Source of the DNA: Deltaproteobacteria bacterium | GTDB lineage: Bacteria; Desulfobacterota; Syntrophia; Syntrophales; JACQWR01 | Direction: 5' to 3' | DNA length: 64,000 bases | Assembly (NCBI GenBank): GCA_016209105.1 | Contig: JACQWR010000018.1 | Coordinates: 62,001-126,000 of the forward strand | Shown: in pieces, positions 17,045 to 57,124 of the stretch | Position numbering within the stretch: the first letter of the stretch is position 1 | How the letters are laid out: the number at the start of each line of letters is the position of its first letter | The notes under the pieces: model-generated | Database searches by the model: none | What the model saw: only the letters and a program-made list of their open reading frames with translations | Told to the model about the DNA's origin: nothing | Position numbers and translations under genes: made by a program

Positions 17045-17098
17045 ATGACCGGATGCGATTTTTACAATACCGTTTGCTATAGATCAGGGCCGTAAATC
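17045..17098. repeat. 3-prime-located dispersed repeat, copy 3 (short)
   Basis: ATGACCGGATGCGATTTTTA followed by AATACCGT and GATCAGGGC matches the left half of the copies at 1442 and 14691. It fills the gap between two convergent genes and may serve as a shared 3-prime element. Confidence 0.55.
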
Positions 17099-18476
17099 AC
17101 CCCCGCAAAATCCGTTCGATTTCCGAATGATCATATTTTCCCGTAGACGCTATCGGGATCCCTTCTACCACGGCAATGCGGCGGGGAACGGCATACGATT
17201 CACTGACCGCGGCGATTTGCCTCCTCACGTGCGACACGTCGAGATGGGTGACTACCAGCGCGGCAATTTCATTTTGACGTCCGTTCCCCGTGGGAAGCGA
17301 TATAACTACGGCATCGCGAACACCCGGTATCTCTTTCAGTTTGGCCTGCACGGCGGCCAGGTCAACCCGTTTTCCTGCGACCTTGACGATATCGTCCGCC
17401 CTGCCCTGGAGAATGAATCGCCGATCTCCGTCCGAATCGGCGCGATCGGCGGTGGCAAAGAAGCCATCGCTATCGAGGGACAGCGTCGGAGAGATAAACG
17501 CCGATCGGACATGCAATATTCCTTCCTGTATCTTCCAATCTACCGTCTCCAGGGGATTCCATGATTCTCCGTCCTGGGAACGATGCCGCACAGCCACCCC
17601 TCCCGTTTCCGTCGAACCATATATTTCGGTGATGTCCAAACCCGTTTTCGCGTGGAAATATGCGGCGTCCTCTTTATCCAGCGCCCCGGCTGAGGAAAAC
17701 GCCATGCGGAGATCGCGACGCTCAAGATCGTCCACCTTCAAAACCCGGTAGTGCACGGGGACGCTGACCAGGACGGATGCCCGGTAATCGCGCGCAGCGC
17801 GGAGTATCTCTCGCGGAAAAGCATATACCCCGTCGAGAACGCGCGCCCTACAGATGAAGGGAATCAGTACGGAATAGAGGAGGCCGTAAATATGCATGGG
17901 CGGCACTGTGGATAGGAAAAGATCGTTGGGAGATATGCCGAATTTCTTTGAGAGATGCAGGGCCTCTGCAAGCATATTCCGGGGCGTCTTGGCCCATACC
18001 TTCGGCTTTCCCGTAGATCCGCCCGTAAACAGCATGAGAAAGGGATTATCCAGATCGAGCACGGCATCGCTCATCAGGGAGTCACCAACCAGCATCGGGG
18101 GAGTTATGACGTCGGGCCCCGAGGGAAAATCACCGGGACAATCCGTCAGGAGAAATGACAACGGCATAATCTCCAGGACTTCCTCAATAGCCTGCCGCGA
18201 AAAGGCATACGGGACGACAAGGCGGGGACCGCCGGCGAGTGAAGCGATGAGCGCCGCAGCCAGAAGGGCTTTATCGTCGGTGCACAGACAGATCGCGGCG
18301 CGGCTTTCTCCTGAAGACGGCTGAAGACGACAAATCGCCGCCGCGCGGCGATAGACCGTTTCATAGGTGCAGCAGTTCAGGACAAATTCCCTGCTTAAGT
18401 CCCGGGGAGGGGAAAAGATATTCCCATACCGCGCCGTTTCCGTGAAACAATCAAGCATGACCGAATCTGTTTTCAT
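17097..18476 (-). CDS. AMP-dependent acyl-ACP/CoA ligase of the aryl polyene type (ApeH-like)
   Basis: The 459-residue ANL-superfamily ligase is shorter than acyl-CoA synthetases, as is usual for aryl polyene adenylation enzymes. Motifs are MLFTGGSTGKPKVWAKT (148-164, ATP P-loop), EIYGSTETGG (A5) and a C-terminal TGKYD with catalytic Lys K447. It should activate an aryl acid such as 4-hydroxycinnamate as adenylate and load it on an ACP as starter. It is divergent from the dehydratase operon at 18619 and convergent with the exchanger. The ammonia lyase at 22659 could provide its substrate. Confidence 0.8.
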   Translation of the reverse strand: MKTDSVMLDCFTETARYGNIFSPPRDLSREFVLNCCTYETVYRRAAAICRLQPSSGESRAAICLCTDDKALLAAALIASLAGGPRLVVPYAFSRQAIEEVLEIMPLSFLLTDCPGDFPSGPDVITPPMLVGDSLMSDAVLDLDNPFLMLFTGGSTGKPKVWAKTPRNMLAEALHLSKKFGISPNDLFLSTVPPMHIYGLLYSVLIPFICRARVLDGVYAFPREILRAARDYRASVLVSVPVHYRVLKVDDLERRDLRMAFSSAGALDKEDAAYFHAKTGLDITEIYGSTETGGVAVRHRSQDGESWNPLETVDWKIQEGILHVRSAFISPTLSLDSDGFFATADRADSDGDRRFILQGRADDIVKVAGKRVDLAAVQAKLKEIPGVRDAVVISLPTGNGRQNEIAALVVTHLDVSHVRRQIAAVSESYAVPRRIAVVEGIPIASTGKYDHSEIERILRG

Positions 18477-18488
18477 CGTTAATTGCCC

Positions 18489-18517
18489 TTGACTTCCCCC
18501 TTTTTCCTATTTACTAT
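18489..18517 (+). promoter_or_regulatory. Promoter of the dehydratase-ketoreductase-ammonia lyase operon
   Basis: TTGACT (18489-18494), 17 bases and TACTAT (18512-18517) point rightward about 100 bases before the gene at 18619. The divergent gene at 18476 must use a promoter on the other strand, for which no clear match was seen. Confidence 0.55.
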
Positions 18518-18618
18518 TCCGGCGCCTATTAGCACATTTTGGCGGCTTTGAACATCGGGAAAAAACCCGCGCATCGTGATAACGGGCGATACAACTATTA
18601 TTTTTTGGATCGGATGAC

Positions 18619-19047
18619 ATGCCGGCATTGCCTCTGGACATTGAGAAACTGATCCCTCATCGGGACCGGATGAAATTAATCAATGAGGTGATAGCGGTAA
18701 ACGCGGATATGGCCGTAACGTCATCCATCGTCTCCGAGCGATGGCCCCTCTGTGACGGGTCTTTTGTTGATCCTCTCGTCCTCATTGAGGTTGTTGCGCA
18801 GACGGCGGGAGTCCACGTAAGCTGGAAAAAAGGAACAGACAAGGGTGTCGGCGGGATGGGATGGCTCGTGGGAATTAAGGACGCCGATTTCTTCCTGGAT
18901 CGGGTTTCGCTCCATACGGAGTTGATCACCACGGTAAAAAATCTGTACAGCGTCGAAAACTATAATGTCCTGGAGGGAACCGTTCTGGCAGGAATAGACC
19001 TCCTGTGCCGGATACAGATACAGGTATTCCGGTCCGGATCGGATTGA
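18619..19047 (+). CDS. Hotdog 3-hydroxyacyl-ACP dehydratase subunit, lacks catalytic His (ApeI-like)
   Basis: A 142-residue FabZ-like hotdog protein. It keeps the N-terminal LIPHRDRMKLI motif and the E57..Q61 pair (LVLIEVVAQTAG) that carries the catalytic acid in FabZ. The HFPxxP segment with the catalytic His is replaced by CDGSFVDP. By itself it therefore lacks half of the active site. The second hotdog dehydratase at 41562 has the opposite loss, so the two probably pair. It would dehydrate 3-hydroxyacyl-ACP during polyene chain growth. First gene of a rightward operon. Confidence 0.75.
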   Translation: MPALPLDIEKLIPHRDRMKLINEVIAVNADMAVTSSIVSERWPLCDGSFVDPLVLIEVVAQTAGVHVSWKKGTDKGVGGMGWLVGIKDADFFLDRVSLHTELITTVKNLYSVENYNVLEGTVLAGIDLLCRIQIQVFRSGSD

Positions 19048-19084
19048 GCATTGCCATCGTAGCGCATTATAGGAGCAACGTACG

Positions 19085-19813
19085 ATGAACGAAGAGCAGG
19101 TCGCGCTGGTGACGGGGGGCAGTCGTGGCATTGGCCGTGCCATTGCCGTTGAGTTGTCCGAGGCAGGTTACAGGATCATCCTCACGTACAAATCAAACGA
19201 TCTGTCCGCCGAGGAAACCCTGGAAATCATCCGTTCGAAGGGCGGCCACGGAGAAAAGATCCGGTTTGATGTGGCCGATTCAAAAGAAACAGCAAAACAG
19301 ATGGATGAAATCATTTCCCACTATACCGACATTCGCGTCCTGGTCAATAATGCCGGAGTAACCGCCGACGGCCTCTTTATGATGATGCCGGAGGAAGACT
19401 GGGATAGGGTTATACAAACGACCCTGAAAGGCTTTTACAATGTAACAAAACCGGTTCTCCGGAGGATGGTTCGAAATAAGAAAGGATCCATCGTTTCCAT
19501 TTCTTCCGCGTCAGCCCTCCTGGGAAACAGGGGGCAGGCCAATTACGCCGCGGCAAAGTCCGGATTGATCGCCGCGAGTCGCTCCCTGGCATCCGAGGTG
19601 GCACGGCTGGGCGTCCGGGTCAATGTGGTCGCACCGGGGCTGATTGATACGGAAATGATCAAGGGAGCGCCGGTAGAGAAAATTAAGGAGATTATCCCCA
19701 TGGCGAGAATCGGCAGGCCGGAAGAGGTTGCGAAGGTCGTCCGTTTCCTCTGTTCCGATGATGCCTCGTATATTACGGGACAGGTAATCTCCGTGAACGG
19801 CGGCATGATCTAG
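19085..19813 (+). CDS. fabG: 3-oxoacyl-ACP reductase, FabG family
   Basis: This is a short-chain dehydrogenase of 242 residues with GGSRGIGRAI for NADPH (11-20), the NNAG motif at 88-91 and catalytic S141, Y154 and K158. It reduces the 3-oxoacyl-ACP formed by the cluster ketosynthases. It lies 37 bases after the dehydratase gene with an AGGAG site. It is the only ketoreductase in the cluster, so it probably serves every elongation round (the ApeQ role). Confidence 0.9.
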   Translation: MNEEQVALVTGGSRGIGRAIAVELSEAGYRIILTYKSNDLSAEETLEIIRSKGGHGEKIRFDVADSKETAKQMDEIISHYTDIRVLVNNAGVTADGLFMMMPEEDWDRVIQTTLKGFYNVTKPVLRRMVRNKKGSIVSISSASALLGNRGQANYAAAKSGLIAASRSLASEVARLGVRVNVVAPGLIDTEMIKGAPVEKIKEIIPMARIGRPEEVAKVVRFLCSDDASYITGQVISVNGGMI

Positions 19814-19961: not shown

Positions 19962-20594
19962 ATGACTATTTACCGCACAATAAAAAGAGGGACATCCCTC
20001 ATCGGGATGCTTCTTGTCTGCACGTTCCTGCTCGGATGGGCAGACACCTGGGAGGATATTCAAAGAGCATCCTCAAAGATAACATCGGTCAGCGCTCGTT
20101 TCTCTCAGGAAAAGCACATGCAGATCCTCGCCAAACCGCTCATTTCCCGGGGGCGTTTTTATTTTCAGACACCCGATTCGGTCAGATGGGAATACACCGC
20201 TCCCGTGAGAAGCGTTTTGCTGATGCACAAAGGCAAAATCAAACGATACACCCAGGGCAGTAAAGGCTTCGTCGAGGATAGGGGCGGGGCCGTTGATTCG
20301 ATGCAGTTCATCCTCCAGGAGATCGGCAGGTGGAGCAAGGGACGGTTCAACGAGAATGAGTATTTTTCGGCGACGCTGAAAGGGGGAACGGGGGCGCATA
20401 TTATCCTGACCCCCAAGGAAAAGGGACTTGCGGCCATGATATCGCGCATCGTGATAACCCCTTCCCCGGACAGACCGGGAGTCCTCAAATCCGTTACCAT
20501 TGTCGAAAGCGAGGAAAATTATACCCTCTTTGAATTCACCGACTCGCAGCTCAATGCGCCTATCGCTGAATCGTTGTTTCGGGAAGTGGAATGA
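19962..20594 (+). CDS. LolA-like outer-membrane lipoprotein carrier protein
   Basis: A 210-residue exported protein with an N-terminal hydrophobic segment (about 12-26) and LolA-type features: the TSVSARFSQEKHMQILAKPLISRGRFYFQTPDSVRWEYTAP region and a beta-rich remainder. LolA homologues are standard members of aryl polyene clusters, where they are thought to ferry the lipid product across the periplasm with the MMPL exporter. The stop overlaps the next lipoprotein gene (ATGA). Confidence 0.8.
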   Translation: MTIYRTIKRGTSLIGMLLVCTFLLGWADTWEDIQRASSKITSVSARFSQEKHMQILAKPLISRGRFYFQTPDSVRWEYTAPVRSVLLMHKGKIKRYTQGSKGFVEDRGGAVDSMQFILQEIGRWSKGRFNENEYFSATLKGGTGAHIILTPKEKGLAAMISRIVITPSPDRPGVLKSVTIVESEENYTLFEFTDSQLNAPIAESLFREVE

Positions 20595-21268
20595 AAGCCC
20601 CCCTGTTGCCCAGGAGCCGGTTTTGGATCGTGATGTGGGCGGTCTGCCTTATCTCCTGCAGCCCTCTTCCCGTCATTAAGCCGACGGATCAAACGGCGGC
20701 TACCGTGCGGAAGTGTCGTCAGCCCTTTCTCGACACTCCCTACCGTTTCGTTCATGCCATTGAGGCCGCATTGCCGGGCGGCGGATCGGGAACGGTTCTG
20801 GGTATCACCGTCTTTAATCCGGAATCAAAGGCGATCCACAGTGCGATCTTCACCCTTGAGGGATTTGTTCTGTTTGATGCCCGGTATGATGGCAAACTGG
20901 TTGTGTCTCGAGCGCTGCCGCCATTCAATGCGGAGCGCTTTGCCGAATACATGATGGAGGATATTCGTCTTATTTTTCTTCCCCCTGAGGGAAGGCTCTT
21001 AACTGCCGGCACGCTTGAAGACGGATCAGCTATCTGCCGGTATGAAGGAAATCAGGAAACCATTATAGATGTGATCGTCCATCGGGATGACAGCTGGGAA
21101 ATCTCCACCTATCGCAATCGGTATGAACGGCTGCGAACAATCAGCGGCTTTTCCGTACGGGATGGGATTCCCGGAATGCTGGAACTGACCGGTTTCGAAT
21201 CCAGGAATTATTCGTTGCGCCTGAAGGTAATCAGTGCCGAGCCGCTTTCCCGCGAGACGATCCCCTGA
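20591..21268 (+). CDS. Aryl polyene cluster lipoprotein (DUF3261-like)
   Basis: The 225-residue protein has a lipobox at LISC (C23) and a predicted beta-rich domain. By position after LolA and by size it matches the DUF3261 lipoprotein of aryl polyene clusters, presumably an outer-membrane partner receiving the product. I recognise it mainly by context; the domain call is not certain. Confidence 0.65.
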   Translation: MKAPLLPRSRFWIVMWAVCLISCSPLPVIKPTDQTAATVRKCRQPFLDTPYRFVHAIEAALPGGGSGTVLGITVFNPESKAIHSAIFTLEGFVLFDARYDGKLVVSRALPPFNAERFAEYMMEDIRLIFLPPEGRLLTAGTLEDGSAICRYEGNQETIIDVIVHRDDSWEISTYRNRYERLRTISGFSVRDGIPGMLELTGFESRNYSLRLKVISAEPLSRETIP

Positions 21269-21381: not shown

Positions 21382-22662
21382 GTGAAATTCAAACTGATCT
21401 ATCCGAAATGGAAAAAACTGGAACGGCAAACGGAATTCCACCTTCCGCCCCACGGCCCCGTCGTCTTTGCGGCGACACTGCCCGACGATGTGGAAATTGA
21501 TTTTACCGATGAAAACGTGGAAGCCCTCAACTTCGACGATTCCCCCGATCTCGTGGGGATATCAATGCTGCTGACCAGCCAAGTCAAGCGGGGGTGGGAG
21601 ATTGCCGATACGTACCGGCAGCAGGGAATCAAGGTTATCTTCGGGGGCATCGCAACAATGCTGCATGCCGAGGAAACAATGCTGCGCGCAGATGCTGTCT
21701 TTCTTGGCGAGGCGGAAGGCAGGATGGAGGAGGTCATCCGCGATTTCCGAAACGGTCGGCTCAAGAAGCGCTACGACTACATGACCGATTTTCCCCCCGT
21801 TGAAAGTATCGGGACGGCACGGAGAGAGATATTAAACCGTGAATTATACAATTACAAAGGCGTGCAGATGCTGGATCTCGTGCATGCGTCGCGGGGATGC
21901 CGATTCAATTGCTATCCCTGCTGCGTGTCCTTTCTGGGAGGGAGGAAGTTCCGCCCCCGCCCCATTGACCGGGTGATGAATGAATTGGCCACCATTGACA
22001 ACAACCGCCTGTTCATCGTGGACAATTCCCTCGCCCAGGACAAGAACTGGGAGCGGGAGCTCTTTACGGCCATGATCCCCCTGAAAAAGAAATGGTGCTG
22101 CCATCCCATTGAGGACGACGACGAGATTCTTGATCTTGCCGCCCGTGCGGGCGCCTGGTACGTGTACCAGGCCATCTTTGACACATCGGACTATATCCGG
22201 GATCGCATCAGGCGCTACCACGAACACGGCATCGCTGTGGAGGGAACGATCCTCCTGGGCCTCGACGACCATACCGAAGACTCCATTCGCCGGCTCGTAG
22301 ATTTTCTCATGGATATCAATCTGGACCTTGCCGAATTCACCTTGCTCACGCCGTTCCCCCACACCCGGACATTTGACGACCTGCGCCGGGCCGGACGAAT
22401 CCTCTCCGCCGACTGGGACGATTACACGGCGGACAAGGTGGTCTTCCAACCCAGAAACATGACACCGGAGCGGCTTCAGGATATCTACAACTACGCCTGG
22501 GATGCCTTCTACCGGGATGAGCCCCAAACCTATAAAATGTTCAAGCTCATGCAGAAAGTAATCGAGAAGGAGAAAGACGGCGGAACATACCGGGGCCGCA
22601 AGCGCGATCTGATAGACCGTCGGTTCGGAAAAACGGAAAAATGCATTGGGGGTAAATCATGA
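21382..22662 (+). CDS. B12-binding-domain radical SAM protein
   Basis: The 426-residue protein has an N-terminal cobalamin-binding-like Rossmann domain (about 25-125) and a radical SAM core with CxxxCxxC at C173/C177/C180 (GCRFNCYPC). GTG at 21382 follows an AGGAAA site. Such proteins carry out methylations or carbon-skeleton chemistry; the substrate is unknown. It lies between the lipoprotein and ammonia lyase genes and overlaps the latter by four bases. No conserved DxHxxG cobalamin ligand is seen, so cobalamin, if bound, would be base-off. Confidence 0.82.
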   Translation: MKFKLIYPKWKKLERQTEFHLPPHGPVVFAATLPDDVEIDFTDENVEALNFDDSPDLVGISMLLTSQVKRGWEIADTYRQQGIKVIFGGIATMLHAEETMLRADAVFLGEAEGRMEEVIRDFRNGRLKKRYDYMTDFPPVESIGTARREILNRELYNYKGVQMLDLVHASRGCRFNCYPCCVSFLGGRKFRPRPIDRVMNELATIDNNRLFIVDNSLAQDKNWERELFTAMIPLKKKWCCHPIEDDDEILDLAARAGAWYVYQAIFDTSDYIRDRIRRYHEHGIAVEGTILLGLDDHTEDSIRRLVDFLMDINLDLAEFTLLTPFPHTRTFDDLRRAGRILSADWDDYTADKVVFQPRNMTPERLQDIYNYAWDAFYRDEPQTYKMFKLMQKVIEKEKDGGTYRGRKRDLIDRRFGKTEKCIGGKS

Positions 22663-24203
22663 AGCAACAAGCGACCAGAATGGTGACCATCGGCAGGAAC
22701 CCGTTGACGCTGGAAGAGATTATTGCCGTCGCACGGGGGAACGCCCCGGTAAAACTCAGCCGCGAACGCTCCTTCCGGGATCGGATCCGCCGAAGCGAAG
22801 CCATGCTTTATTCCGCCATCCGCAACGAGATTCCCATCTACGGCGTCAACACGGGATACGGCAAGTCCTGCGGGAAGCGACTGACGCAGGATCAGGTACT
22901 AAAGCACCGCAAGGACAATCTCATCCGGTTTCACGGCTGCGGCACCGGCGAGCCCATTGGCGTCGAGGCAACACGGGCAGCCATGCTCTGCCGCCTCATC
23001 TGCTTATCCCGTGGCTATTCCGGCGTTTCCTTCGGGCTCCTGGAACAACTGGCGGCCTTTCTCAACCACGGGATTACGCCCGTCGTCCCCTGCGAGGGAT
23101 CCGTGGGGGCTTCCGGTGACCTGACCCCCATGTCCTACGTGGCGGCGGCTCTGACGGGGAAGCGCGATGTTTTCTGCCGGGGTAAGCGCATGCCCGCCAC
23201 GGGGGCGCTGAGACTGTCCGGCCTCGCCCCGTACGCCTTCGCCCCGAAGGAAGCCATCTCCATGCTGAACGGCACCTCCACGATGACGGGTCTGGCAATC
23301 CTTGCCGTGGAGAGGGCCGGTCGGATTCTGAATGCAGGCATTTTCGCCACGGCGCTCACCGTCCACGCCCTGAAGGGAAAGGCTCTCCACTTCCACCCTA
23401 CCATCGGCGAGGCAAAACCCTTTCCGGGGCAAGTCCAGGTTGCCCGCCGTCTGACAGAGCTCCTCCGGATGCGGAAACGCATCGCCGATATCGAGTCCCA
23501 GGCAAAAGAAGACCTGCAGGACCCCTATTCCGTCCGGTGCGCCCCGCACATCATCGGGGTGCTTTCCGATGCCCTGACATGGATCCGGCAATGGGTCGAG
23601 ACCGAGGCAAACAGCGCCAACGACAACCCCATCTTCGATCCGGAAACGAGTCAGCCGCTCATGAGCGGAAATTTCTATGGCGGACACATAGCCTTCGCCA
23701 TGGATGCCCTGAAGGCCGCCCTGGCGTCCATAGCGGACATGTGCGACCGACAGGTGACCCTGCTGGTGGATCCCCTTTTCAACCGGGGGCTCCCGGCAGA
23801 CCTGGTGCGGGTTCCAAGCGAATCCCTGGTATTTCACCACGGCTTTAAGGCCATGTCCCTCTCCACATCGGCATTGGCGGCAGAGGCGCTGAAACTGACC
23901 ATACCCGCGGCCTCCTTTTCCCGTTCCACGGAATCCCACAACCAGGACAAGGTCAGTATGGGAACCATCGCCGCCCGCGACGCGGAACGGATATGCACGC
24001 TGACGGAGCGGGTGCTGGCCATCCATCTTCTCGCCGCCGCCCAGGGCTGCGAGATCCGCGGGAACATTGATGTACGGCCAAGACTTGTGTCCCTCATCCA
24101 TCAGATCCGCTCCCTGTCGGAAGCAGTGCTGGAAGACCGCGAAATGGACGAAGACATTGAGCGCCTCGCCCGGACCATTGCCAAGGCGGAACTGTTCAGT
24201 TAA
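22659..24203 (+). CDS. Aromatic amino acid ammonia lyase (HAL/PAL/TAL family)
   Basis: A 514-residue MIO-type lyase. The self-made MIO cofactor derives from Ala-Ser-Gly 151-153 (SVGASGDLTPMSY), catalytic Tyr is Y61 in YGVNTGYG, and NDNP plus the FxHNQD-like ESHNQDKVSMG motif are present. In an aryl polyene setting it should deaminate tyrosine or phenylalanine to the cinnamic acid starter. The selectivity pair in NLIRFHGCGTG reads Phe-His, unlike the Ser-His of histidine lyases, His-Leu of bacterial tyrosine lyases or Phe-Leu of plant phenylalanine lyases, so specificity cannot be assigned by sight. No hut genes are nearby. Confidence 0.88.
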   Translation: MKQQATRMVTIGRNPLTLEEIIAVARGNAPVKLSRERSFRDRIRRSEAMLYSAIRNEIPIYGVNTGYGKSCGKRLTQDQVLKHRKDNLIRFHGCGTGEPIGVEATRAAMLCRLICLSRGYSGVSFGLLEQLAAFLNHGITPVVPCEGSVGASGDLTPMSYVAAALTGKRDVFCRGKRMPATGALRLSGLAPYAFAPKEAISMLNGTSTMTGLAILAVERAGRILNAGIFATALTVHALKGKALHFHPTIGEAKPFPGQVQVARRLTELLRMRKRIADIESQAKEDLQDPYSVRCAPHIIGVLSDALTWIRQWVETEANSANDNPIFDPETSQPLMSGNFYGGHIAFAMDALKAALASIADMCDRQVTLLVDPLFNRGLPADLVRVPSESLVFHHGFKAMSLSTSALAAEALKLTIPAASFSRSTESHNQDKVSMGTIAARDAERICTLTERVLAIHLLAAAQGCEIRGNIDVRPRLVSLIHQIRSLSEAVLEDREMDEDIERLARTIAKAELFS

Positions 24204-24241: not shown

Positions 24242-25984
24242 ATGGACAGTCAGTTGCACGCCATGAGAGAGGATTTCCGGCAGGCCATCATTGCCGGCGT
24301 CGAACGCCTCACGGCCTGTGCTGATCTCCTGGACCGGATCAATGTCTTCCCCATCGCGGATGGCGACACGGGTCGGAATTTCGTCATCAGCTTATCACCC
24401 CTGCGCCGACCAGAACGGGACCGGAAGATCGTGGCCCGTGATCTTCTCCTCTCGGCACGGGGGAATTCGGGAAATATCGCCTCCGCTTTTTTCCAATGCT
24501 TTATTCAGTCGGATTCCCTCGAAGACCTGCCGGATACCGTCCGGCTGGGACGCGATCGCTCGCGGAAAGCTATACCCGAACCTCAAGAGGGGACGATGCT
24601 GAGTTTCTTCGATGCCCTGGCGGCAGGCCTTCCCGATGCCGGAGTTCTCTCCGATCCAGAGCGGATCGCTGAACTCCTGACACAACTGGAAACCGTCGTC
24701 CGCAATACGACGGATCAGCAGCAGAAGCTCCGGAAGGCCGGGGTGGTGGATGCCGGCGCTCTGGGTCTCTTCCTGTACTTCGAAGGATTCTTCCATCTCC
24801 TCGCGGGTGGCCGAGTCCCCTTCCGTCTTTTACCGGAAGCGTTTCGCGACCGGCTTCAGATCTCGCCCTCCTACGGCGGAGATCGGGAAACGGGGTACTG
24901 TGTGGACACGGTGCTGCAGGGCGAAGCGGATGCGGCAGAGACGGGACAGATGCTTACTACCCTTGGCGAGTCGGTTATCGTAACCCGCACGGATGCCTGT
25001 TATAAAATTCATTTTCACACCCAGGACCGTGAAGATGCCCGCCGGAAGCTTGTCCGCCTGGGGAAAGTCATCGGCTGGGCGGAAGATGATTTACACCAGC
25101 AAACATCGGCCTTCGCCCGCACAAGCCGCGAGCCCGCCATCCACATCATGACCGACGCGGCGGCCTCACTCAGCCGCCAGGATGCGAAGGATTTAGGAAT
25201 CAGCCTCCTGGACAGCTACATCACCATCGGGGATCGCTGCCTGCCGGAGACCTATTTCAGTCCGGAGGAGCTCTACAACGCCATGCGTTCAGGTCAGCGG
25301 GTGACGACCGCCCAGGCCTCCGTCTTCGAGCGCCACCAGTTCTATGCAAGCGTTATGAGCCGCTATGCGCAGGTGCTCTACCTGTGCGTTGGATCGGCCT
25401 TCACGGGCAACTATCCGGTGGTCATGGACTGGAAGCGGCAGCATGACCCGGAGGACCGTCTCGTCGTGCTGGATACCGGCGCGGCGTCGGGACGGCTCGG
25501 GGTGCTTGCCCGCGCCGTGGCCGCCTGTGCCTCTGAGGCCGACGAGGCCGGGCGCGTCATCGCCTATGCCCGGCAGGCTTTGACCCGCTGCGAGGAATAT
25601 GTGTTTCTCGATCGCCTCGAATATCTGGCTGCCGGAGGGCGGCTGTCGAAAACGGGGGCATTTTTCGGCGATATGCTGCACATGAAACCGATTGTGAGCC
25701 CGATGGCTGAGGGGGTCCGCAAGGTCGGCATCGCACGGAACCGGAAAGATCAATTGCGTTTTGCGCTGGATGCCTTGGACTGTTCGCTGAAGCAGGATAA
25801 CAATGCCCTTATCCTGCTGGAATATTCGGATAACCGGCCTTGGGTGGATGAGGTCGGGCTTGAGGTGGCAAAACGCTATCCGGAGGCCCGCATAGTCGTG
25901 CATTCCCTGTCTTTGACCTCCGGCGCGCACATGGGCCCCGGAACCTGGGCCCTGGCCTTTCTGCCGGACCTCAGGATGCAGTGA
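24242..25984 (+). CDS. DhaL (FakA-like) kinase - DegV (FakB-like) fusion, putative acyl kinase
   Basis: The 580-residue protein joins two normally separate partners. Residues 1-190 are a DhaL/DAK2 kinase domain with NVFPIADGDTG (Mg-ATP binding, D40/D42) and GNSGN (74-78). About 195-295 is a FakA-like middle region. Residues 298-580 are a DegV acyl-binding domain with MTDAAASL, TTAQAS, GSAFTGNY and YLAAGGRLSKTG. In Firmicutes FakA phosphorylates a fatty acid held by FakB to acyl-phosphate. A one-chain version at the end of the starter operon could activate or recycle a fatty or aryl acid. The role is inferred; the fusion is seen directly. Confidence 0.82.
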   Translation: MDSQLHAMREDFRQAIIAGVERLTACADLLDRINVFPIADGDTGRNFVISLSPLRRPERDRKIVARDLLLSARGNSGNIASAFFQCFIQSDSLEDLPDTVRLGRDRSRKAIPEPQEGTMLSFFDALAAGLPDAGVLSDPERIAELLTQLETVVRNTTDQQQKLRKAGVVDAGALGLFLYFEGFFHLLAGGRVPFRLLPEAFRDRLQISPSYGGDRETGYCVDTVLQGEADAAETGQMLTTLGESVIVTRTDACYKIHFHTQDREDARRKLVRLGKVIGWAEDDLHQQTSAFARTSREPAIHIMTDAAASLSRQDAKDLGISLLDSYITIGDRCLPETYFSPEELYNAMRSGQRVTTAQASVFERHQFYASVMSRYAQVLYLCVGSAFTGNYPVVMDWKRQHDPEDRLVVLDTGAASGRLGVLARAVAACASEADEAGRVIAYARQALTRCEEYVFLDRLEYLAAGGRLSKTGAFFGDMLHMKPIVSPMAEGVRKVGIARNRKDQLRFALDALDCSLKQDNNALILLEYSDNRPWVDEVGLEVAKRYPEARIVVHSLSLTSGAHMGPGTWALAFLPDLRMQ

Positions 25985-26618: not shown

Positions 26619-26648
26619 CGGTTCAGCAAATTTATCAGGGGGATAACC

Positions 26649-27500: not shown

Positions 27501-27591
27501 GGCTGTTCACCCTTCCATACTCCTTGAACACGAAACAAAACGTAACAAAGGAGTCAGTCGGGACTTAATTTGCCGTGTTTGCCATGACGTT

Positions 27592-27705: not shown

Positions 27706-27746
27706 TCCGGATGCTGGAATAGGCGCCCCTTCCCTGCCCCTCATTA

Positions 27747-28319: not shown

Positions 28320-28370
28320 TGCAACCTCCTTTTGTCTTATTAATTCTGTTTCTCTGACAGGGATAAGCGA

Positions 28371-35472: not shown

Positions 35473-35491
35473 ACGTCCCCCGTCTCCCCCG

Positions 35492-48493: not shown

Positions 48494-48560
48494 GAATATC
48501 GCTCCCTTCCGCAATGGCTTTTCCGAGAGAATTTTTATCCCTAAACATTATCTTGTCTTT

Positions 48561-49937: not shown

Positions 49938-52900
49938 TTATGATGCCGGTGCGGCCGTTTCCCCTCCCCTGCTGCTCACCCTCGCCACAAACCACCACTC
50001 TTCCTCGCCGGGAGCGCTGATTTCCGTGCCAATGATCTCGAAACCAGCCTCCGCTATGATGGTCAGGATATTTTTTTGAGAACGAAAATGGGGTATCCCT
50101 TTCTGCATAGCAATCCTCTTCGTCTCGATCCACCGTTTCCAGGGAACTCGTTTCCCCGAAGGCACTGTCGCCCTGATAATCAACGCACCTCCGGGACAGA
50201 GCTTGCGATGGAGGCGCTGCAAGGACAGTCCGAGCTCGGCGTCTGTCAGCAGATGGATGACGTCGAGGAGAAGAGCCGTATCGGCCCGTTCGGAAATATC
50301 GGGTATATTGGGGGCGCGCCCGACCTCTACCATCCCTCTCGTTCCGACCGCCCGCAACGCGAACCGGACGCGCTCACGATCCGGTTCGATCCCGTAAAGC
50401 CGCGCGCGCGGATGCAATTCAAGAAGCCAGACGGCCGGCACGCCGAAGCCGGTTCCCACATCCAGGATGATTCCCGGTTCTTTGACAAAATCGGCCAGAC
50501 GCGGAAACATGGGATCGAGGAGAATCTTAAACCGGGCAAAGAGCCGCGGATAGGCTTCCATGTGCCGGTACCGCGATACCGCGCGCTGCAGGTGCCTTCT
50601 CGATCCGGCTACAAGAGTGTCATCCGACGACGGCTCCTGAGCAAATATCCGTTTCATAAGCGGGGGAGCAATCGTAACAGCGCCCAGAAAAGAATAGCCG
50701 ATCCCCAGGGAAAGTCCAAGCCCGGCGCCCCTCAACAGGACATTGTCTGAAAGGGCAAGGACGCCGAACCCCAGAAATGTCGTGGCAAATGAAAGAAATA
50801 CACTCAGCCGGATCAGTCCCAGAGAAGGATCATCCTCATCACGATAACGCTGATAGGCGCGCACCAGATAGAGGGCATAGTCCGTTCCCATGCCGATGAC
50901 GACGACGGATACCATCAGTGTCGGTATGCTGAGGGGCTGCCCCACGAGATTCAACGTGCCGAGGGTGCAGACCAGGGCAAACACAGTCGGCGCCATGCTG
51001 ATCAGGGTCAGCTGCCAGTCTAAAAAATACAAAAAGGCCGTCAGAATTGTGATGAGCCCCACGATGGCGGCCATCTTCAGGAAGGCAGACAAGAGGACCG
51101 CTCCAAAACGCTTACTGAACAGGGCGGGGTCAAACACCCGCGCCAGGCCCGTTGCCGTGAAACGCCGGTAAAAATCTTCTCCCCCATATCCAGGTCCCGG
51201 GGTCAACGCGGCAACCTGCACCCAGGAAGACCGATCCTGATTCACCGAGATGCCGAGAAGACCGGAAAACCCCTCCGGCATGTCTGTCCCCTGCACGTCC
51301 TGTTTATCGAGCAACGCGAAAAACGGATCAAACGCGCCAGGCGAAAAACCCAACTGCCGTGAGGCGTCTCCCATAGCCTCGCGGAGCCCGGCAACCCGAT
51401 CGGGATCCCAGAAGCCCCGCCAGGCTGCAAAATTTTTGCGCGCCAGCTCTTCCCCCGGAAAAATCATGGAAGGGACAAAGGCCTGGGAAATCCGGCCCGC
51501 GGCCACTTCTTCACCCAGTAATTCGGCCATGCGGTCGGATTTCCGCTGGAGATCCCGCGAATCCGGACCCTCAACCATCAGATATACCTTGCTGAAGATA
51601 TCTCCCCATACATCCCTGATACGTTTCTCCGCATTGAGGGTCTCACGGCTGATGGCGTTGACAGAATTCAGATCCACATGAAATTGCGGCTTCGCGAAAA
51701 ACAGCATGACAACCCCAAACGCCAAGGCGGCATACGTCTTCCATAGCCCTCGTGAAGATGCGATTCCGTTGACGAAACGCTGGAGCGGCAGGCGGGGAGG
51801 CCGTTTCGCGGGGGGCATGAACGGAAACAGCAGAGGGAAGAACGTATGAACAAAGATATAGGTAAAGAGGACTCCCAGCGCGGCAAATTGGCCTATCTGC
51901 GCCAAGGCCTGGAATCCGCTCACGGAGAGGAATGCAAAGCTGACCGCCGTCGTCAGCATGGCAAGCAGCCCCAGAGACCAGACCTCCCTGGTGGTTTCCA
52001 GCCCCTGCGTTTCGTACGGACGGTCAAGAAACAGGAGATAGGCGATGCCGTAATCAACGGTAAAAGAAATAATCGCCCCGCCGAAACCGACGGCCAGCAA
52101 TGAAATGGACGGGTGAAACAGGGAATAGACAAAAAAAGCCAGCATGGTTCCGGCAAAGGCCGGCAGAAAAGCCAGCAGTCCGATCAGCGGCCGGGGGAAA
52201 CCCACCAGGAGCAGCAGTGCAATGGCCGCAGTTGAAAACAAAACTGCTCTTTTTACATTACGCTTCGCATTGATCTCATTGTCGAGAGCGGCGCGATAGG
52301 CGCCGACAGGCGTCAGGGAAAAACCGCTCTGCCCGCCCTGCTTCCCGCGCAGTTCCGCCGAGATGCCTTCCATCAGCGCCGTGACCCGTCGTGCAAACCG
52401 TGTATCCATGCCGGAGGTCAACGGCTCCGCAATGATCAGGATGTGCTTCCCGTCCGATGAGACGATACGCCCCTTATATATCCGGGCGCCCCTTGCCGGG
52501 GAGAGATGCGATAAACGCGACATTACCAGGTTCCGTAAGGCGAGAGGGTCATCGGAGATAAACCCCGCCTGGCCGATACCGGCAAGATCATGCAGGGAAG
52601 ATAAAAGGTCATTCAACGTCTGGCGAACCTTTTCCGGCGCCAGGAGCGGTTTGATATTTCTTTCAAGCTCATCACCGCTGAACAGGACGGGGAGGTTATC
52701 AACAACGGAGCGCATCAATTCCGGTATGCGTTGACCGATCTGCTGGAATCCTACCTCCTTAAAAAGGCCGCTGTTCCGCATTCTCGTTTCAACCTGCACT
52801 GCTCCCTCAACGAGGGCATCCAGGTCACCGCCGGTTTGTCCCAGATCGAGGACTACGCGGTCATGAATCGGATGATGCATAATGACATACCGGGCATCGG

Positions 52901-53039
52901 CCAATACCGGATCGGTCCGGGGAAGGGACGCGAGGATATCGCTCTCAAATTGCAGACGGTATATTCCGGACAGGAAAAGTCCGATGACGGCCAAAATTAC
53001 GATAGCCACGAGAGAATATCTCAAGAGGTATTTGTGCAT
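49938..53039 (-). CDS. MMPL/RND-type exporter fused to a SAM methyltransferase
   Basis: The 1033-residue protein has an RND-like membrane part (about 1-800): an N-terminal helix, a periplasmic loop, six-helix bundles with GFGGAIISFTVDYGIAYLLF and VIGMGTDYALYLVRAYQRY, and a second periplasmic loop. The C-terminal 190 residues are a class I SAM-dependent methyltransferase with motif DVGTGFG (860-866), EPDRERVRFA, and LLDVIHLL. It is predicted to move the finished lipid or aryl acid across the inner membrane. The attached methyltransferase could methylate the 4-hydroxyaryl head, as aryl polyene methyltransferases do. Confidence 0.86.
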   Translation of the reverse strand: MHKYLLRYSLVAIVILAVIGLFLSGIYRLQFESDILASLPRTDPVLADARYVIMHHPIHDRVVLDLGQTGGDLDALVEGAVQVETRMRNSGLFKEVGFQQIGQRIPELMRSVVDNLPVLFSGDELERNIKPLLAPEKVRQTLNDLLSSLHDLAGIGQAGFISDDPLALRNLVMSRLSHLSPARGARIYKGRIVSSDGKHILIIAEPLTSGMDTRFARRVTALMEGISAELRGKQGGQSGFSLTPVGAYRAALDNEINAKRNVKRAVLFSTAAIALLLLVGFPRPLIGLLAFLPAFAGTMLAFFVYSLFHPSISLLAVGFGGAIISFTVDYGIAYLLFLDRPYETQGLETTREVWSLGLLAMLTTAVSFAFLSVSGFQALAQIGQFAALGVLFTYIFVHTFFPLLFPFMPPAKRPPRLPLQRFVNGIASSRGLWKTYAALAFGVVMLFFAKPQFHVDLNSVNAISRETLNAEKRIRDVWGDIFSKVYLMVEGPDSRDLQRKSDRMAELLGEEVAAGRISQAFVPSMIFPGEELARKNFAAWRGFWDPDRVAGLREAMGDASRQLGFSPGAFDPFFALLDKQDVQGTDMPEGFSGLLGISVNQDRSSWVQVAALTPGPGYGGEDFYRRFTATGLARVFDPALFSKRFGAVLLSAFLKMAAIVGLITILTAFLYFLDWQLTLISMAPTVFALVCTLGTLNLVGQPLSIPTLMVSVVVIGMGTDYALYLVRAYQRYRDEDDPSLGLIRLSVFLSFATTFLGFGVLALSDNVLLRGAGLGLSLGIGYSFLGAVTIAPPLMKRIFAQEPSSDDTLVAGSRRHLQRAVSRYRHMEAYPRLFARFKILLDPMFPRLADFVKEPGIILDVGTGFGVPAVWLLELHPRARLYGIEPDRERVRFALRAVGTRGMVEVGRAPNIPDISERADTALLLDVIHLLTDAELGLSLQRLHRKLCPGGALIIRATVPSGKRVPWKRWIETKRIAMQKGIPHFRSQKNILTIIAEAGFEIIGTEISAPGEEEWWFVARVSSRGGETAAPAS

Positions 53040-53042: not shown

Positions 53043-53768
53043 CTATTTTCCTCGTGCAAAGGGAAATACGCATACCCTCATGAAGAGCAAACGACTGAAG
53101 GTGCCTGCATTCCGGAAGAAATCAACAAAGCCCCGGTAATGGGACACCCTCTCCTCTGCGCAATCATACGTAACCCGGACGGGCGTTTCCCGAACGGGTA
53201 TCCGCCGCCAGTGCGCCCTGACCAGGATTTCAACCTCAAATTGAAACCGTCGCGCCCTGACGCTCAAATGCATGGCCTCCGGCAGGGGATACAACCGAAA
53301 GCCGCTTTGCGTGTCACCGAGGTTCGGGCCTCCGCATGCCCGCACCCAGAAGTTTGAGAACGCCCTGCCGAAACGGCTTTTCCACGGGACATGGCGCTGA
53401 TTCATCCCTTCCCTTCGACCGACAACGATGGGCCGTTCACCGGGGGGGACGGCCCGTATCAGATTCAGGACATCCTCCGGATGATGCTGGCCGTCGGCAT
53501 CCATGGTGATCGCCCAGTCTACAGAGGGGAAAGCCGCCGTAAACCCGGTCAGAATGGCTGCGCCTTTCCCTCTATTTACGCTATGACGGATGATGGTTAT
53601 GGATGCTTTATCTTTTAGTTGGTTTACTTGGTCGTACGTGGAATCCGATGATCCGTCGTCAATCACAAACAGCGGGAGATGAAGCTTAAGGGCTTCCCTG
53701 ACGACTTCTGCAATCTTTCCTTCATGATTGTAAACGGGAATCACAAGAGCGACGCGGTCTTTGTCCAT
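53043..53768 (-). CDS. Glycosyltransferase family 2
   Basis: A 241-residue GT-A enzyme from ATG 53768. Visible motifs are VIPVYNHEGKIAEVV, DDGSSDST and DADGQHHPED (metal-binding DxD), resembling dolichyl-phosphate mannosyltransferase/DPM1 type enzymes. It should add a sugar to the lipid anchor. It has a GAGGGGA site and lies 3 bases upstream of the exporter gene. The open frame extends to 54086 but the extra N-terminus runs through a repeat element. Confidence 0.83.
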   Translation of the reverse strand: MDKDRVALVIPVYNHEGKIAEVVREALKLHLPLFVIDDGSSDSTYDQVNQLKDKASITIIRHSVNRGKGAAILTGFTAAFPSVDWAITMDADGQHHPEDVLNLIRAVPPGERPIVVGRREGMNQRHVPWKSRFGRAFSNFWVRACGGPNLGDTQSGFRLYPLPEAMHLSVRARRFQFEVEILVRAHWRRIPVRETPVRVTYDCAEERVSHYRGFVDFFRNAGTFSRLLFMRVCVFPFARGK

Positions 53769-53840
53769 CAGTTCAGTCCCCTCCCCCGCTCCTCTGTTAT
53801 CATTCTGGAGATCGCTCTCTCCGGCCGTTACGTCCCGTAA

Positions 53841-53870
53841 TCTATAACCTTGGGAACACTTTTGTGTCAA
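53841..53870 (-). promoter_or_regulatory. Promoter of the glycosyltransferase-exporter-acyltransferase operon
   Basis: On the minus strand TTGACA (53870-53865), 18 bases and TATAGA (53846-53841) lie about 75 bases before ATG 53768. Confidence 0.6.
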
Positions 53871-53941
53871 TCCTTTAATACCGATCAGGAGTTCCCCCCT
53901 CATAACGAACTCGTAAATGGTCACCAAAACGTTAATGTTAG

Positions 53942-54102
53942 GACGGCTTTGTAAAAAGCTCCCCCGGCCTTCGCTGGGGCAGGCTGCGGCAAGGCATACA
54001 ACTTGAGCATCCGGACCGGGAGCGCATCCCGGAGGGGGCGCAAAAGTAATGAGTTCTTCCTTGCCGGGAAGTGCAAAGCACTTCAATTTTTACGAAGCCG
54101 TC
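53942..54102. repeat. 161-base MITE-like element with 16-base terminal inverted repeats
   Basis: GACGGCTTTGTAAAAA (53942-53957) and TTTTTACGAAGCCGTC (54087-54102) match at 15 of 16 positions when inverted. No coding sequence inside. It lies between divergent transcription units. No target duplication is obvious. Confidence 0.75.
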
Positions 54103-54150
54103 AATCATAATTGTTTTGACACGCGTCGGCATTTTACTTACAGTTGGCCC

Positions 54151-55623
54151 ATGACAAAGGGCAGTCCCTTCAAAAAACGCATAGCGCTTGTCCATCCGCG
54201 CGGATTCAACTGGTTGTCCGGTCGTTGCGATATTACGGATATCGCCAATCGCATGGTTCCCCAGGGACTGCTTTCCATTGCCTCTTACCTCGCGGAACAG
54301 GGGCACAACGTTTTTGTTTACGATTGCCTCGGCCCGGATGTTCCCCTCAATCTCCCTGAACAAGTTAAAGCGATTTTAGATTACGAACCCGAGATCGTCG
54401 GATTCTCCGCAACAACGTCATCGTTTCTTGATGCCGCAGATATGGCGCACAAAATCAAGGAACACTCGGCAGACATTATAACCGTTTGCGGAGGCGTACA
54501 TGCTTCCGCATTGAAAGGCGAGTTGCTTCGCGATTACCCCGCCATTGACTTTCTCTGCGCCGGCGAGGGAGAGATCACGATGGCGGAGCTTGCGCAAAAC
54601 AGAGAGCCCGCAGAAATCAAGGGATTACTGTGGCGTCACGCCTCCGAGGTAGTTGCCAATGAGCCGCGCACACAAATAGCCAATTTGGATACTCTCCCTT
54701 TTCCCGCTTATGAAAAACTTAAGGGGTTTCCTCACGATTACCATCTGCCGTTGTTCAGCTATGTCAATACACCCGGAGCGACGATGATTACGTCGCGGGG
54801 CTGCAGGTACCAATGTTCTTATTGTGACCGCTCTGTGTTCAAGAAGGGATTCCGTTATAACTCCGCTTCTTACATTTACGATCACATGAGATATCTGCGG
54901 ACGCGATTTGGCGTGCGGCATATCAATATCTATGATGACTTGTTTACCGCAGACCGCGCACGTATTGTCGAACTCTGCGAGAAACTCGCCCGTTATCCCT
55001 TGGGGATTAATTTCAACTGTGCGGTACGGGTAGGTTACACGGATGATGAGTTGGTCATGATGCTCAAAGATGCGGGTTGTCTGATGGTCTCTCTGGGCAT
55101 AGAATCAGCGGACCCGCAAATGCTGGCCAGGCACAAATCCGGAGTTTCCCTTGATGAGGTGTGCGATACGGTGAAACGGATTCAGGCCGCAGGACTGCGG
55201 GCAAAGGGATTATTTATGATGGGTTTGCCCGGAGAAACGGAAGAATCTATTCGCAGGACGTCTGATTTTATTATTTCGCTCGGCCTGGACGACATGAACA
55301 TGTCCAAGTTTACCCCCTTTCCCGGGGCGCCGCTTTGGTCGTCCATCAGGGAAGAAGGAACTTTCAACGAAGACTGGCGGCTGATGAATTGCCTGAATTT
55401 TGTTTTTGTCCCCAGCGGGATCACATCAAAAGAGCAATTGGATCTGCTATACAATGAACACGTGAAGCGCTTCTATTCCGATCCCGAGTGGCGCAGAAAA
55501 TTCCGGCGTCGTCTTTGGCAACATCGAAAAAGTCTTTCCTATTTAATTCGTCACTTGCCTTCGTTTTGGTCGGCGAAGCGCCAGTTTGAGCCCGACAAAA
55601 GCCGAATTCATTTTGACACATGA
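54151..55623 (+). CDS. B12-binding-domain radical SAM protein
   Basis: A 490-residue protein from ATG 54151 (the frame is open upstream through the repeat). It has a cobalamin-binding-like domain (about 8-140, with GGVHASAL and CAGEGE) and a radical SAM core with C218/C222/C225 (CRYQCSYC). The ribosome site is weak. It is the sixth radical SAM gene of the cluster and the only one on the plus strand at this end. Substrate unknown. Confidence 0.82.
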   Translation: MTKGSPFKKRIALVHPRGFNWLSGRCDITDIANRMVPQGLLSIASYLAEQGHNVFVYDCLGPDVPLNLPEQVKAILDYEPEIVGFSATTSSFLDAADMAHKIKEHSADIITVCGGVHASALKGELLRDYPAIDFLCAGEGEITMAELAQNREPAEIKGLLWRHASEVVANEPRTQIANLDTLPFPAYEKLKGFPHDYHLPLFSYVNTPGATMITSRGCRYQCSYCDRSVFKKGFRYNSASYIYDHMRYLRTRFGVRHINIYDDLFTADRARIVELCEKLARYPLGINFNCAVRVGYTDDELVMMLKDAGCLMVSLGIESADPQMLARHKSGVSLDEVCDTVKRIQAAGLRAKGLFMMGLPGETEESIRRTSDFIISLGLDDMNMSKFTPFPGAPLWSSIREEGTFNEDWRLMNCLNFVFVPSGITSKEQLDLLYNEHVKRFYSDPEWRRKFRRRLWQHRKSLSYLIRHLPSFWSAKRQFEPDKSRIHFDT

Positions 55624-55704: not shown

Positions 55705-56547
55705 ATGTGCATTCATCGGTGGTTGATGGCAGCTTTTGCACTCGTAGGTTTACTGTTACCCGGAAGCGTTCTGTGTGCGGAAAAGCCTCTTTGGGAATTT
55801 GGCGCAGGGTTGGCGCTTCTCCGGATGCCCGATTATCGAGGTTCCGACGAAAGCAGATATTACGTGCTGCCGTACCCCTACCTCATTTATCGCGGCGATG
55901 TTTTAAAAGTGGATAGGGAGCGTATTTCGGGACGCATCTTTAAAACGGACAGGCTGTTATTGGATATCAGCCTGTTTGGTAATGTGCCGGTTGACAGTTC
56001 TAAAAATACTGCCCGCAGCGGCATGCCGGATCTGGATCCAACGTTTGAAATAGGTCCGTCGTTAAATATAACGCTTCTCAAGAAGCAACAAGGTCGTTAT
56101 AAGTTGAATCTTGCCTTGCCGGTGCGTGCATTTTTTTCGACAGATTTTTCCTCGCTGCATCATCAGGGATGGGTATTTAGTCCTAAACTGATCTTCGAAA
56201 AAGAGGATTTTATCCCACAGACCGGCTTGAAGTTGGGGATTTCAGCCGGACCGATGTTTGCCGACAGCTCCTGCAACAGCTACTATTATTCGGTTGATCC
56301 GGTTTATGCGACAGCCTCGCGTCCCGCGTATTCCGCCGGCGGCGGATACAGCGGCTCCACGCTTGCCGTTAGTCTCAATAAAGGATTTGAACAACTTCTC
56401 TTGAATGCCTTTGTCGGCGCGGATTTTCTCCACGGCGCCGTTTACGAAGACAGTCCACTGGTGAAAAAGAAAAATTCCGTCATGTGCGGATTCACCGTGT
56501 CCTGGATTTTCCTCAAATCGGCAAAACAGGTGCCAACAGACAAGTAA
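55705..56547 (+). CDS. MipA/OmpV family outer-membrane protein
   Basis: The 280-residue protein from ATG 55705 has a GAGAGG ribosome site and a signal peptide ending at VLCA. The mature part shows the MipA/OmpV pattern of alternating beta strands, with an early LPYPYLIYRGD and a C-terminal aromatic-rich strand. An earlier ATG at 55672 is in frame but has a poor site. Function in the family is unclear (outer-membrane channel or scaffold). Flanked by cluster genes, it may help place the product in the outer membrane. Confidence 0.75.
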   Translation: MCIHRWLMAAFALVGLLLPGSVLCAEKPLWEFGAGLALLRMPDYRGSDESRYYVLPYPYLIYRGDVLKVDRERISGRIFKTDRLLLDISLFGNVPVDSSKNTARSGMPDLDPTFEIGPSLNITLLKKQQGRYKLNLALPVRAFFSTDFSSLHHQGWVFSPKLIFEKEDFIPQTGLKLGISAGPMFADSSCNSYYYSVDPVYATASRPAYSAGGGYSGSTLAVSLNKGFEQLLLNAFVGADFLHGAVYEDSPLVKKKNSVMCGFTVSWIFLKSAKQVPTDK

Positions 56548-56580
56548 TCATCTCGCCTTACCGGAACAGCACCTTTACCC

Positions 56581-56626
56581 CTTGCAGCTTCCCGCGGCAA
56601 GCCGCGGGAAATGCTGAGCGAGCGGA
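56581..56626. terminator. CGCGGCAAGCCGCG hairpin repeat between convergent genes
   Basis: TTCCCGCGG (56589-56597) and CCGCGGGAA (56602-56610) form a perfect nine-base stem with a CAAG loop between convergent genes ending at 56547 and 56628. It belongs to the repeat family also seen near 145 and 27600 and probably ends transcription from both sides. Confidence 0.6.
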
Positions 56627-56627
56627 T

Positions 56628-57047
56628 TCAAAAACCCAACGCCTTCCGGATTTCATCCGGGATGGCAAACATGATCTCCATCTCCGGCGCTTTCACGGCA
56701 ATCTGTTCCGTCCTGCCGCGGGTACAGAGTTTCCCGTCGTTTTTCAGTCTGATTTCAAAATCTACGACGATTTTATTTTTCCCCTCAACTACGTCCGCTT
56801 TACAGATAAATTCGTCTCCATACCTCAGGGGATAGATATGTTTTGTGGACGTTTTGATGATGGGAAAAAGACATTGCGTTCTCGAATAATACTCAAAGAG
56901 ATCAACGCCGAGATGAGCAAACAGGGCCACTCTCGCATTTTCAAAGTAATTGAAGTAATTGCCGTGCCACACGATTTGCATCGGATCGAGGTCGTAAAAC
57001 GGCACCTTGTGAAAAATCTCAAAACTGTGATTCTGATTCCGGGTCAC
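56628..57047 (-). CDS. YbgC/4HBT-type acyl thioesterase
   Basis: The 139-residue hotdog protein has the motif YDLDPMQIVWHGNYFNYFENAR (active-site Asp D19 or D21). GTG 57047 with an AGAGGAAA site is preferred: an in-frame start at 57113 would lie upstream of the -10 box of its own promoter. It would hydrolyse acyl-CoA or acyl-ACP thioesters. It is distinct from the cluster thioesterase at 35807. Confidence 0.78.
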   Translation of the reverse strand: MTRNQNHSFEIFHKVPFYDLDPMQIVWHGNYFNYFENARVALFAHLGVDLFEYYSRTQCLFPIIKTSTKHIYPLRYGDEFICKADVVEGKNKIVVDFEIRLKNDGKLCTRGRTEQIAVKAPEMEIMFAIPDEIRKALGF

Positions 57048-57094
57048 AATGTCTTTCCTCTTTGAGAGCACTCGCTTTTTATCGCGACTGCGGA

Positions 57095-57124
57095 AGTATA
57101 AGGAAGAAGGCAATTGCGTGTCAA
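57095..57124 (-). promoter_or_regulatory. Promoter of the thioesterase gene
   Basis: On the minus strand TTGACA (57124-57119), 18 bases and TATACT (57100-57095) lie about 45 bases before GTG 57047. Confidence 0.65.

Follow-up and report, generated by a model that had tools for sequence, protein, structure and literature searches.

The DNA considered here is a window of 64,000 nucleotides (positions 62,001 to 126,000 of contig JACQWR010000018.1) from a Deltaproteobacteria bacterium of the order Syntrophales. At positions 17097-57113 it carries a gene cluster in which aryl polyene (APE)-like biosynthetic genes are interleaved with six radical S-adenosylmethionine (SAM) enzymes, here termed rSAM1 to rSAM6. 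We consider it likely, with a probability of roughly 60%, that this cluster encodes one pathway of strict anaerobes that leads to an APE-type outer-membrane lipid modified by radical SAM enzymes. A hitherto undescribed kind of membrane lipid is the probable product. The initial annotation had proposed an APE-like cluster coupled to radical SAM enzymes, with a polyene that is remodelled and attached to a lipid. The coupling is genuine, as the link of the radical SAM genes to ketosynthase (KS) and acyl carrier protein (ACP) genes is conserved in relatives, and a lipid product remains probable, with its route refined to FakAB-PlsY-PlsC; methylation, cyclisation and colour are conjectural. The reactions and the product discussed below are predictions; what is observed is the gene content, the integrity of the motifs and the way the genes are conserved and co-occur.

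The proposal of a single pathway is based on recurrence. Open reading frames (ORFs) of the interval were called and their proteins searched with Pfam profiles, and the window proteins were compared with related genomes by tblastn. With rSAM4 at an identity of at least 62% as the criterion for a cluster-bearing genome, 21 of the 297 sampled genomes of the phylum, spread over ten families, carry the cluster. A scan of genome contigs retrieved 333 relatives, the best 80 of which are mostly from Syntrophaceae, Smithella and Desulfobacteraceae, with several from Spirochaetes and one labelled Planctomycetota. Nearly the whole gene set lies together in G039, mostly at 60-88% identity, and ten other genomes keep the set in a rearranged order. 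In Smithella-type genomes the set is divided over two loci, the first with rSAM3/4, two KSs (KS_b and KS_c), rSAM5, NodB and PlsY, the second with the ammonia lyase, rSAM1, FakAB, GT2 and MMPL, plus the AMP ligase, ketoreductase (KR), LolA and CrtI where the contig extends. Both loci are present together in all four split genomes checked. Altogether, the roughly 30 genes of this conserved block probably represent one pathway of strict anaerobes. The genome labelled Planctomycetota (G297) combines rSAM3/4 that are 72% identical to those of the window with eleven HZS_alpha domain matches, pointing either to horizontal transfer or to a mixed bin. A search of viral contigs returned no relatives.

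The genes of the interval are given below with their predicted roles. Fractions refer to 16 compared clusters and are lower bounds, since some compared stretches are incomplete and contigs of metagenome-assembled genomes are often broken off, which makes absence from a stretch weak evidence.

17097-18476 (-): AMP-forming acyl/aryl ligase, ApeH-like role (acid to ACP); PF00501, 3e-24; TGGSTGKPK; 12/16, the two lowest identities being 22-23%
18619-19047 (+): ApeP-like hotdog dehydratase; PF22817, E = 0.0098, under the Pfam cut-off; EVVAQTAG; 12/16
19085-19813 (+): KR of the short-chain dehydrogenase/reductase type, ApeQ role; PF13561, 3e-61; 13/16
19962-20594 (+): LolA-like carrier, ApeL role; PF03548, 6e-15
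20591-21268 (+): DUF3261 LolB-like lipoprotein, ApeN role; PF11659, 0.0019, under cut-off; kept beside LolA in relatives
21382-22662 (+): rSAM1, radical SAM enzyme with a degenerate B12-binding domain, core; PF02310/PF04055; 15/16
22659-24203 (+): aromatic amino acid ammonia lyase (HAL) with methylidene-imidazolone (MIO) cofactor; PF00221, 2e-151; ASG triad; 8/16
24242-25984 (+): FakA-FakB fusion (DAK2, FakA middle and DegV domains), predicted fatty acid kinase; NVFP..DGDTG and RGNSG intact
29746-30453 (-): PlsY, predicted acyl-phosphate:glycerol-3-phosphate acyltransferase; PF02660, 7e-35
30380-31915 (-): fusion of a hotdog dehydratase and a phosphopantetheinyl transferase (DH_PPT); PF01648, 6.5e-8, and PF21089, weak; HxxxGxxxxP; 16/16
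31912-33456 (-): rSAM2, B12-binding radical SAM enzyme, accessory; 4/16
33453-34217 (-): PlsC acyltransferase; PF01553, 7e-21; HX4D and FPEGTR
34231-35475 (-): KS_a, FabF-type KS, with a likely start inside the listed ORF 34231-35625; Cys-His-His intact
35492-35770 (-): third ACP, easily missed; TTG start as listed
35807-36403 (-): 4HBT thioesterase a; 16/16
36288-37589 (-): KS_b; 16/16
37713-39008 (-): KS_c; 16/16
39002-40000 (-): rSAM3, radical SAM enzyme with a C-terminal CCx6CxxC, core; 16/16
40072-41163 (-): rSAM4, rSAM3 paralogue with a C-terminal CCx5CxxC, core; 16/16
41226-41492 (-): ACP1; PF00550
41562-41951 (-): ApeI-like hotdog dehydratase; PF22818, 1.6e-8, over cut-off
42103-43008 (-): NodB-type sugar deacetylase; PF01522, 4e-27; TFDDGPD
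42966-44315 (-): rSAM5, TIGR04072 'ladder' B12 radical SAM enzyme, core; 388 bits against a cut-off of 360; 15/16
44312-45793 (-): CrtI-like flavoprotein; PF13450; CrtD and carotenoid isomerase models under cut-off
45790-47973 (-): fusion of KS and chain length factor (KS-CLF), 727 aa, ApeO plus ApeC role; catalytic triad intact in the N half, PF13723 without Ketoacyl-synt_C in the C half
47970-48275 (-): ACP2; PF00550
48224-48514 (-): small membrane protein with two predicted transmembrane segments; no Pfam/NCBIfam match; 13/16
49023-49922 (-): LpxL-type acyltransferase, ApeD role; PF03279, 3e-13
49938-53039 (-): fusion of an MMPL/RND exporter (ApeM role) and a SAM methyltransferase, kept over about 1020 aa in relatives
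53043-54086 (-): GT2 glycosyltransferase, polyprenyl-P-GalNAc-synthase-like; PF00535, 3e-21; listed ORF start probably too early
54049-55623 (+): rSAM6, HpnJ/AprD4-like B12-binding radical SAM enzyme, accessory; 4/16
56628-57113 (-): 4HBT thioesterase b; adjoins the ammonia lyase and FakAB genes in relatives

Every gene class named in the initial annotation was recovered by Pfam, the three ACPs and four KSs are present, and five of its six radical SAM starts are retained; the rSAM6 ORF opens at 54049 instead of 54151, and the FakA-FakB, DH_PPT and MMPL-methyltransferase fusions, the 4HBT thioesterases and the gene at 57273-59375 had been missed or understated. The motifs checked in the KS, dehydratase, ligase, acyltransferase, deacetylase and FakA proteins are all intact. 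The third ACP is the protein at 35492-35770; 48224-48514 was ruled out for this role, being a membrane protein.

All six radical SAM proteins contain CxxxCxxC. A B12-binding domain is found in rSAM1 (weak), rSAM2, rSAM5 and rSAM6 and is not found in the paralogues rSAM3 and rSAM4, which both carry a C-terminal CC...CxxC motif. Judged by their presence in the compared clusters, rSAM1, rSAM3, rSAM4 and rSAM5 form the core set, so that the six enzymes of the initial annotation reduce to four, with rSAM2 and rSAM6 as accessory members. The most conserved protein is rSAM3 (72-87% identity in the named loci). By sequence, the nearest solved proteins are AprD4 and TokK for rSAM6, tryptophan 2-C-methyltransferase and AprD4 for rSAM5, entry 9ccb and TokK for rSAM2 and, weakly (3e-5), AprD4 for rSAM1. 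AlphaFold (AF2) models of rSAM3 and rSAM4, with a mean predicted local distance difference test score (pLDDT) of 80.5 and 79, respectively, gave only partial radical SAM barrel matches in Foldseek (SuiB, CteB, BlsE, viperin). Assignment of this pair as tetraether synthase (Tes) or viperin was rejected, as the generic radical SAM core alone is matched, with Foldseek TM-scores of no more than about 0.5. For Tes, moreover, NF045702 scores 24-25 bits against a cut-off of 450, and GDGT-MAS aligns with only a portion of the radical SAM core and is not among the Foldseek matches listed. The gene arrangement is tight: overlaps of 4 bp each join rSAM1 with the ammonia lyase, PlsC with rSAM2 and DH_PPT, and rSAM5 with CrtI, KS-CLF and ACP, rSAM3 overlaps KS_c by 7 bp, and gaps of 71 and 62 bp separate rSAM4 from rSAM3 and ACP1, respectively. 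With all radical SAM genes but one thus overlapping a biosynthetic or partner gene or lying shortly behind it, and with the set recurring across ten families, the association is more than chance. In four Desulfotalea-like TIGR04072 clusters the rSAM1 homologue is about 60% identical, far closer than the other shared genes, and rSAM1 may catalyze a step that these pathways all have in common.

The FakA-FakB fusion and PlsY suggest how the product enters lipid metabolism. By sequence, the fusion matches solved FakA and FakB proteins; against the equivalog models for FakA and FakB1 it scores under cut-off. The residues that bind Mg/ATP in S. aureus FakA (PMC9136124) have their counterparts in its NVFP..DGDTG and RGNSG motifs. 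In the host, the four Smithella-type genomes and G134, the DAK2 gene and PlsY of the cluster are the only ones over cut-off, and PlsX was not found in these six genomes. Five genomes of the same order that lack the cluster have none of DAK2, PlsY and PlsX. PlsY is present in 20 of the 21 cluster-bearing genomes; with one exception, genomes whose cluster has no PlsY of its own have a copy elsewhere. FakAB is described as producing acyl-phosphate, the substrate of PlsY (PMC12594616, PMC5700162). Given the sole copies of DAK2 and PlsY, the missing PlsX and the lack of all three in relatives without the cluster, we infer a dedicated acyl-phosphate (FakAB-PlsY-PlsC) route serving the cluster product.

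The start of the pathway is suggested by the ammonia lyase, which keeps the MIO triad and has F aligned to the H89 position of Rhodobacter tyrosine ammonia lyase, the position that switches the specificity of that enzyme from Tyr to Phe. Its best solved match, entry 2o78, also has F there. Where present, the enzyme would preferably convert Phe to a cinnamate-type acid, which the AMP ligase would load on an ACP. The KS-CLF fusion, its partner KSs, KR and the dehydratases would then build a conjugated polyene on ACPs that are activated by DH_PPT. Next, the CrtI-like flavoprotein, rSAM3 and rSAM4 as an obligate pair, and the B12 radical SAM enzymes may remodel chain or ring without O2, be it by methylating it, by forming C-C bonds or by some other radical reaction. 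A 4HBT thioesterase would release the acid for binding by FakB and phosphorylation by FakA, after which PlsY would transfer it to glycerol-3-phosphate. PlsC (and LpxL) may attach further chains, GT2 and NodB could provide an amino sugar, and the MMPL-methyltransferase, LolA and DUF3261 proteins would carry the lipid to the outer membrane. A more specific version is possible, albeit doubtful: a lipid class of its own, namely a glycero-phospho-aminosugar lipid whose APE chain is made carbocyclic, cross-linked or otherwise rigid by rSAM3/rSAM4 and the B12 radical SAM enzymes. Such a lipid would be the equivalent of ladderanes outside anammox bacteria, widespread among syntrophs, sulfate reducers and anaerobic spirochaetes.

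Several points weigh against a single radical SAM-tailored APE-type pathway. Neither rSAM3 nor rSAM4 has a close solved relative. Some assignments fall under curated cut-offs, namely the ApeP-like dehydratase, DUF3261 and GT2, which is nearest to the PpgS (polyprenyl-P-GalNAc synthase) model at 87 bits. In eight of the 16 compared clusters the stretch seen contains no ammonia lyase; these may use another starter or obtain the aromatic acid from a different source. G014, which is 99% complete, has FakAB without PlsY, and the host genome itself (2.7 Mb) is 92% complete.

Among the alternatives, the one that survives best is an ordinary APE pigment lipid, with radical SAM enzymes merely substituting for oxygen-dependent or SAM-methyltransferase steps of aerobes, e.g., ring methylation. 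The gene roles are indeed close to those of APE, and B12 radical SAM enzymes are often methyltransferases, with TokK, TsrM and CysS among the nearest solved proteins. Yet, four core radical SAM enzymes, extra KSs, a FakAB-PlsY-PlsC route and a CrtI-like protein exceed the needs of a methylated APE, and the E. coli APE gene list used for comparison (PMC8253772) comprises no radical SAM, CrtI-like or FakAB gene, making this alternative unlikely. Two independent pathways side by side, one an ordinary APE cluster and the other a radical SAM/KS lipid cluster, would explain the two loci of Smithella-type genomes but seem more improbable still: the same genes are intermixed in varying orders across ten families, the two loci accompany each other in the four split genomes checked, and rSAM1/ammonia lyase, rSAM5/CrtI and CrtI/KS-CLF overlap. 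Least probable is a pathway to ladderanes or a ladderane precursor (polyunsaturated fatty acid), in which radical SAM enzymes close rings on a polyene: TIGR04072 is named by NCBI for ladderane-type lipid synthesis and Rattray 2009 links such clusters to ladderanes (PMC2649909), but the separate phylogeny and distinct gene content described below argue against it, the related Desulfotalea produces acyclic polyunsaturated hydrocarbons and no ladderanes (PMC2649909), and the role itself is unproven, with E. coli expression yielding none (PMC4790861).

Within the cluster, a small island at 26121-29673 encodes lipoproteins, a ferritin-like protein and a DUF2846 protein. Its genes were ruled out as pathway members: of the five, only 27747-28319 occurs in any of the 16 compared clusters, namely in one, and also in a few other loci; its homologues inside several related clusters are 33-38% identical. 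Just past the interval, 57273-59375 (+) encodes a 700-aa predicted secreted, coiled-coil-like protein without Pfam/NCBIfam match, which may belong to the pathway because a related cluster, that of G039, contains a 68% identical homologue. A trpE-G-D-C operon (59668-63848, +) follows directly after the cluster. On the other side, 2431-17012 adjoins the cluster with genes for a 2-oxoacid:ferredoxin oxidoreductase, a tripartite tricarboxylate transporter, a thiamine pyrophosphate (TPP) enzyme and 2-hydroxyacid and aldehyde dehydrogenases, and resembles a catabolic island for organic or aryl acids.

What radical SAM enzymes do in ladderane-type clusters has long been a puzzle, and anammox bacteria are difficult experimental organisms. 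Since the present cluster has the TIGR04072 and CrtI-like enzymes in common with those and is found at hundreds of loci in other anaerobes, the shared steps may be testable in more tractable relatives. Likewise, transfer from the FakAB fusion to PlsY offers a testable entry route of a polyketide acid into a membrane lipid. Literature searches for a link between APE, radical SAM enzymes and sulfate reducers, and for Syntrophales ladderane clusters, found none. 'Ladderane' calls in Desulfobacterota, e.g., from the Cariaco Basin, are reported without assigned function (PMC9902471), and clusters of the present kind may explain some of them.

Compared with known systems, the cluster resembles those for APE of the E. 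coli CFT073/Xenorhabdus type, and most E. coli APE gene roles are represented by domain. It comprises the aryl-ACP ligase, KS and CLF, KR, ApeI- and ApeP-like dehydratases (the latter under cut-off), ACPs, the LpxL-like acyltransferase and thioesterase, as well as the LolA, DUF3261 and RND/MMPL transport set and a methyltransferase. Unlike in APE clusters, KS-CLF and MMPL-methyltransferase are fusions, and four to six radical SAM enzymes, a CrtI-like protein, ammonia lyase, FakAB, PlsY/PlsC, NodB and extra KSs come on top. Xenorhabdus APE lipids reportedly (a preprint, as a lead only) have a galactosamine head group, which would fit GT2 and NodB. With flexirubin/dialkylresorcinol clusters it shares an aromatic ammonia lyase, an AMP ligase and a KS/ACP set, but the lyase scores 297 bits against the FlxA cut-off of 700 and no DarA/DarB-type gene was recognized in the cluster. 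The Firmicute FakA/FakB-PlsX-PlsY route agrees in its DAK2, FakA middle and DegV domains, in the Mg ligands and in PlsY as the partner. Here, however, FakA and FakB are fused, without a recognized separate FakA C-terminal domain, PlsX is absent from these Syntrophales genomes, and the substrate is presumably an internal polyketide acid instead of an exogenous fatty acid.

The likeness to ladderane-candidate clusters, as raised in the initial annotation, holds for part of the genes. A TIGR04072 (rSAM_ladder_B12) radical SAM protein over the curated cut-off accompanies FabF, FabZ, ACP and CrtI-like genes, and two HZS-bearing, presumably anammox, genomes have homologues of rSAM1, rSAM5, CrtI, KS, ACP, NodB, GT2 and PlsC at about 20-43% identity (34% for rSAM1); the Kuenenia cluster resembles theirs (PMC2649909). 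NodB is common to the cluster and the anammox candidates, and the other seven are shared with both these and the Desulfotalea-type TIGR04072 clusters (Rattray 2009). The likeness does not extend to rSAM3/4, for which the anammox genomes gave only weak generic radical SAM matches and no orthologues, nor to the ammonia lyase and FakAB, which are missing from the anammox loci; Desulfotalea-type clusters lack all of these as well. In a maximum-likelihood tree of TIGR04072 proteins, rSAM5 of the rSAM3/4-bearing genomes forms one clade (support 100/100) to which the anammox, Desulfotalea-like and Geobacter-like groups do not belong; the latter two are named from gene content and Rattray 2009. Given this separate clade and the lack of rSAM3/4 in anammox genomes, the cluster is, as far as phylogeny and gene content indicate, a variant of a wider APE/ladderane-candidate family outside the anammox type.

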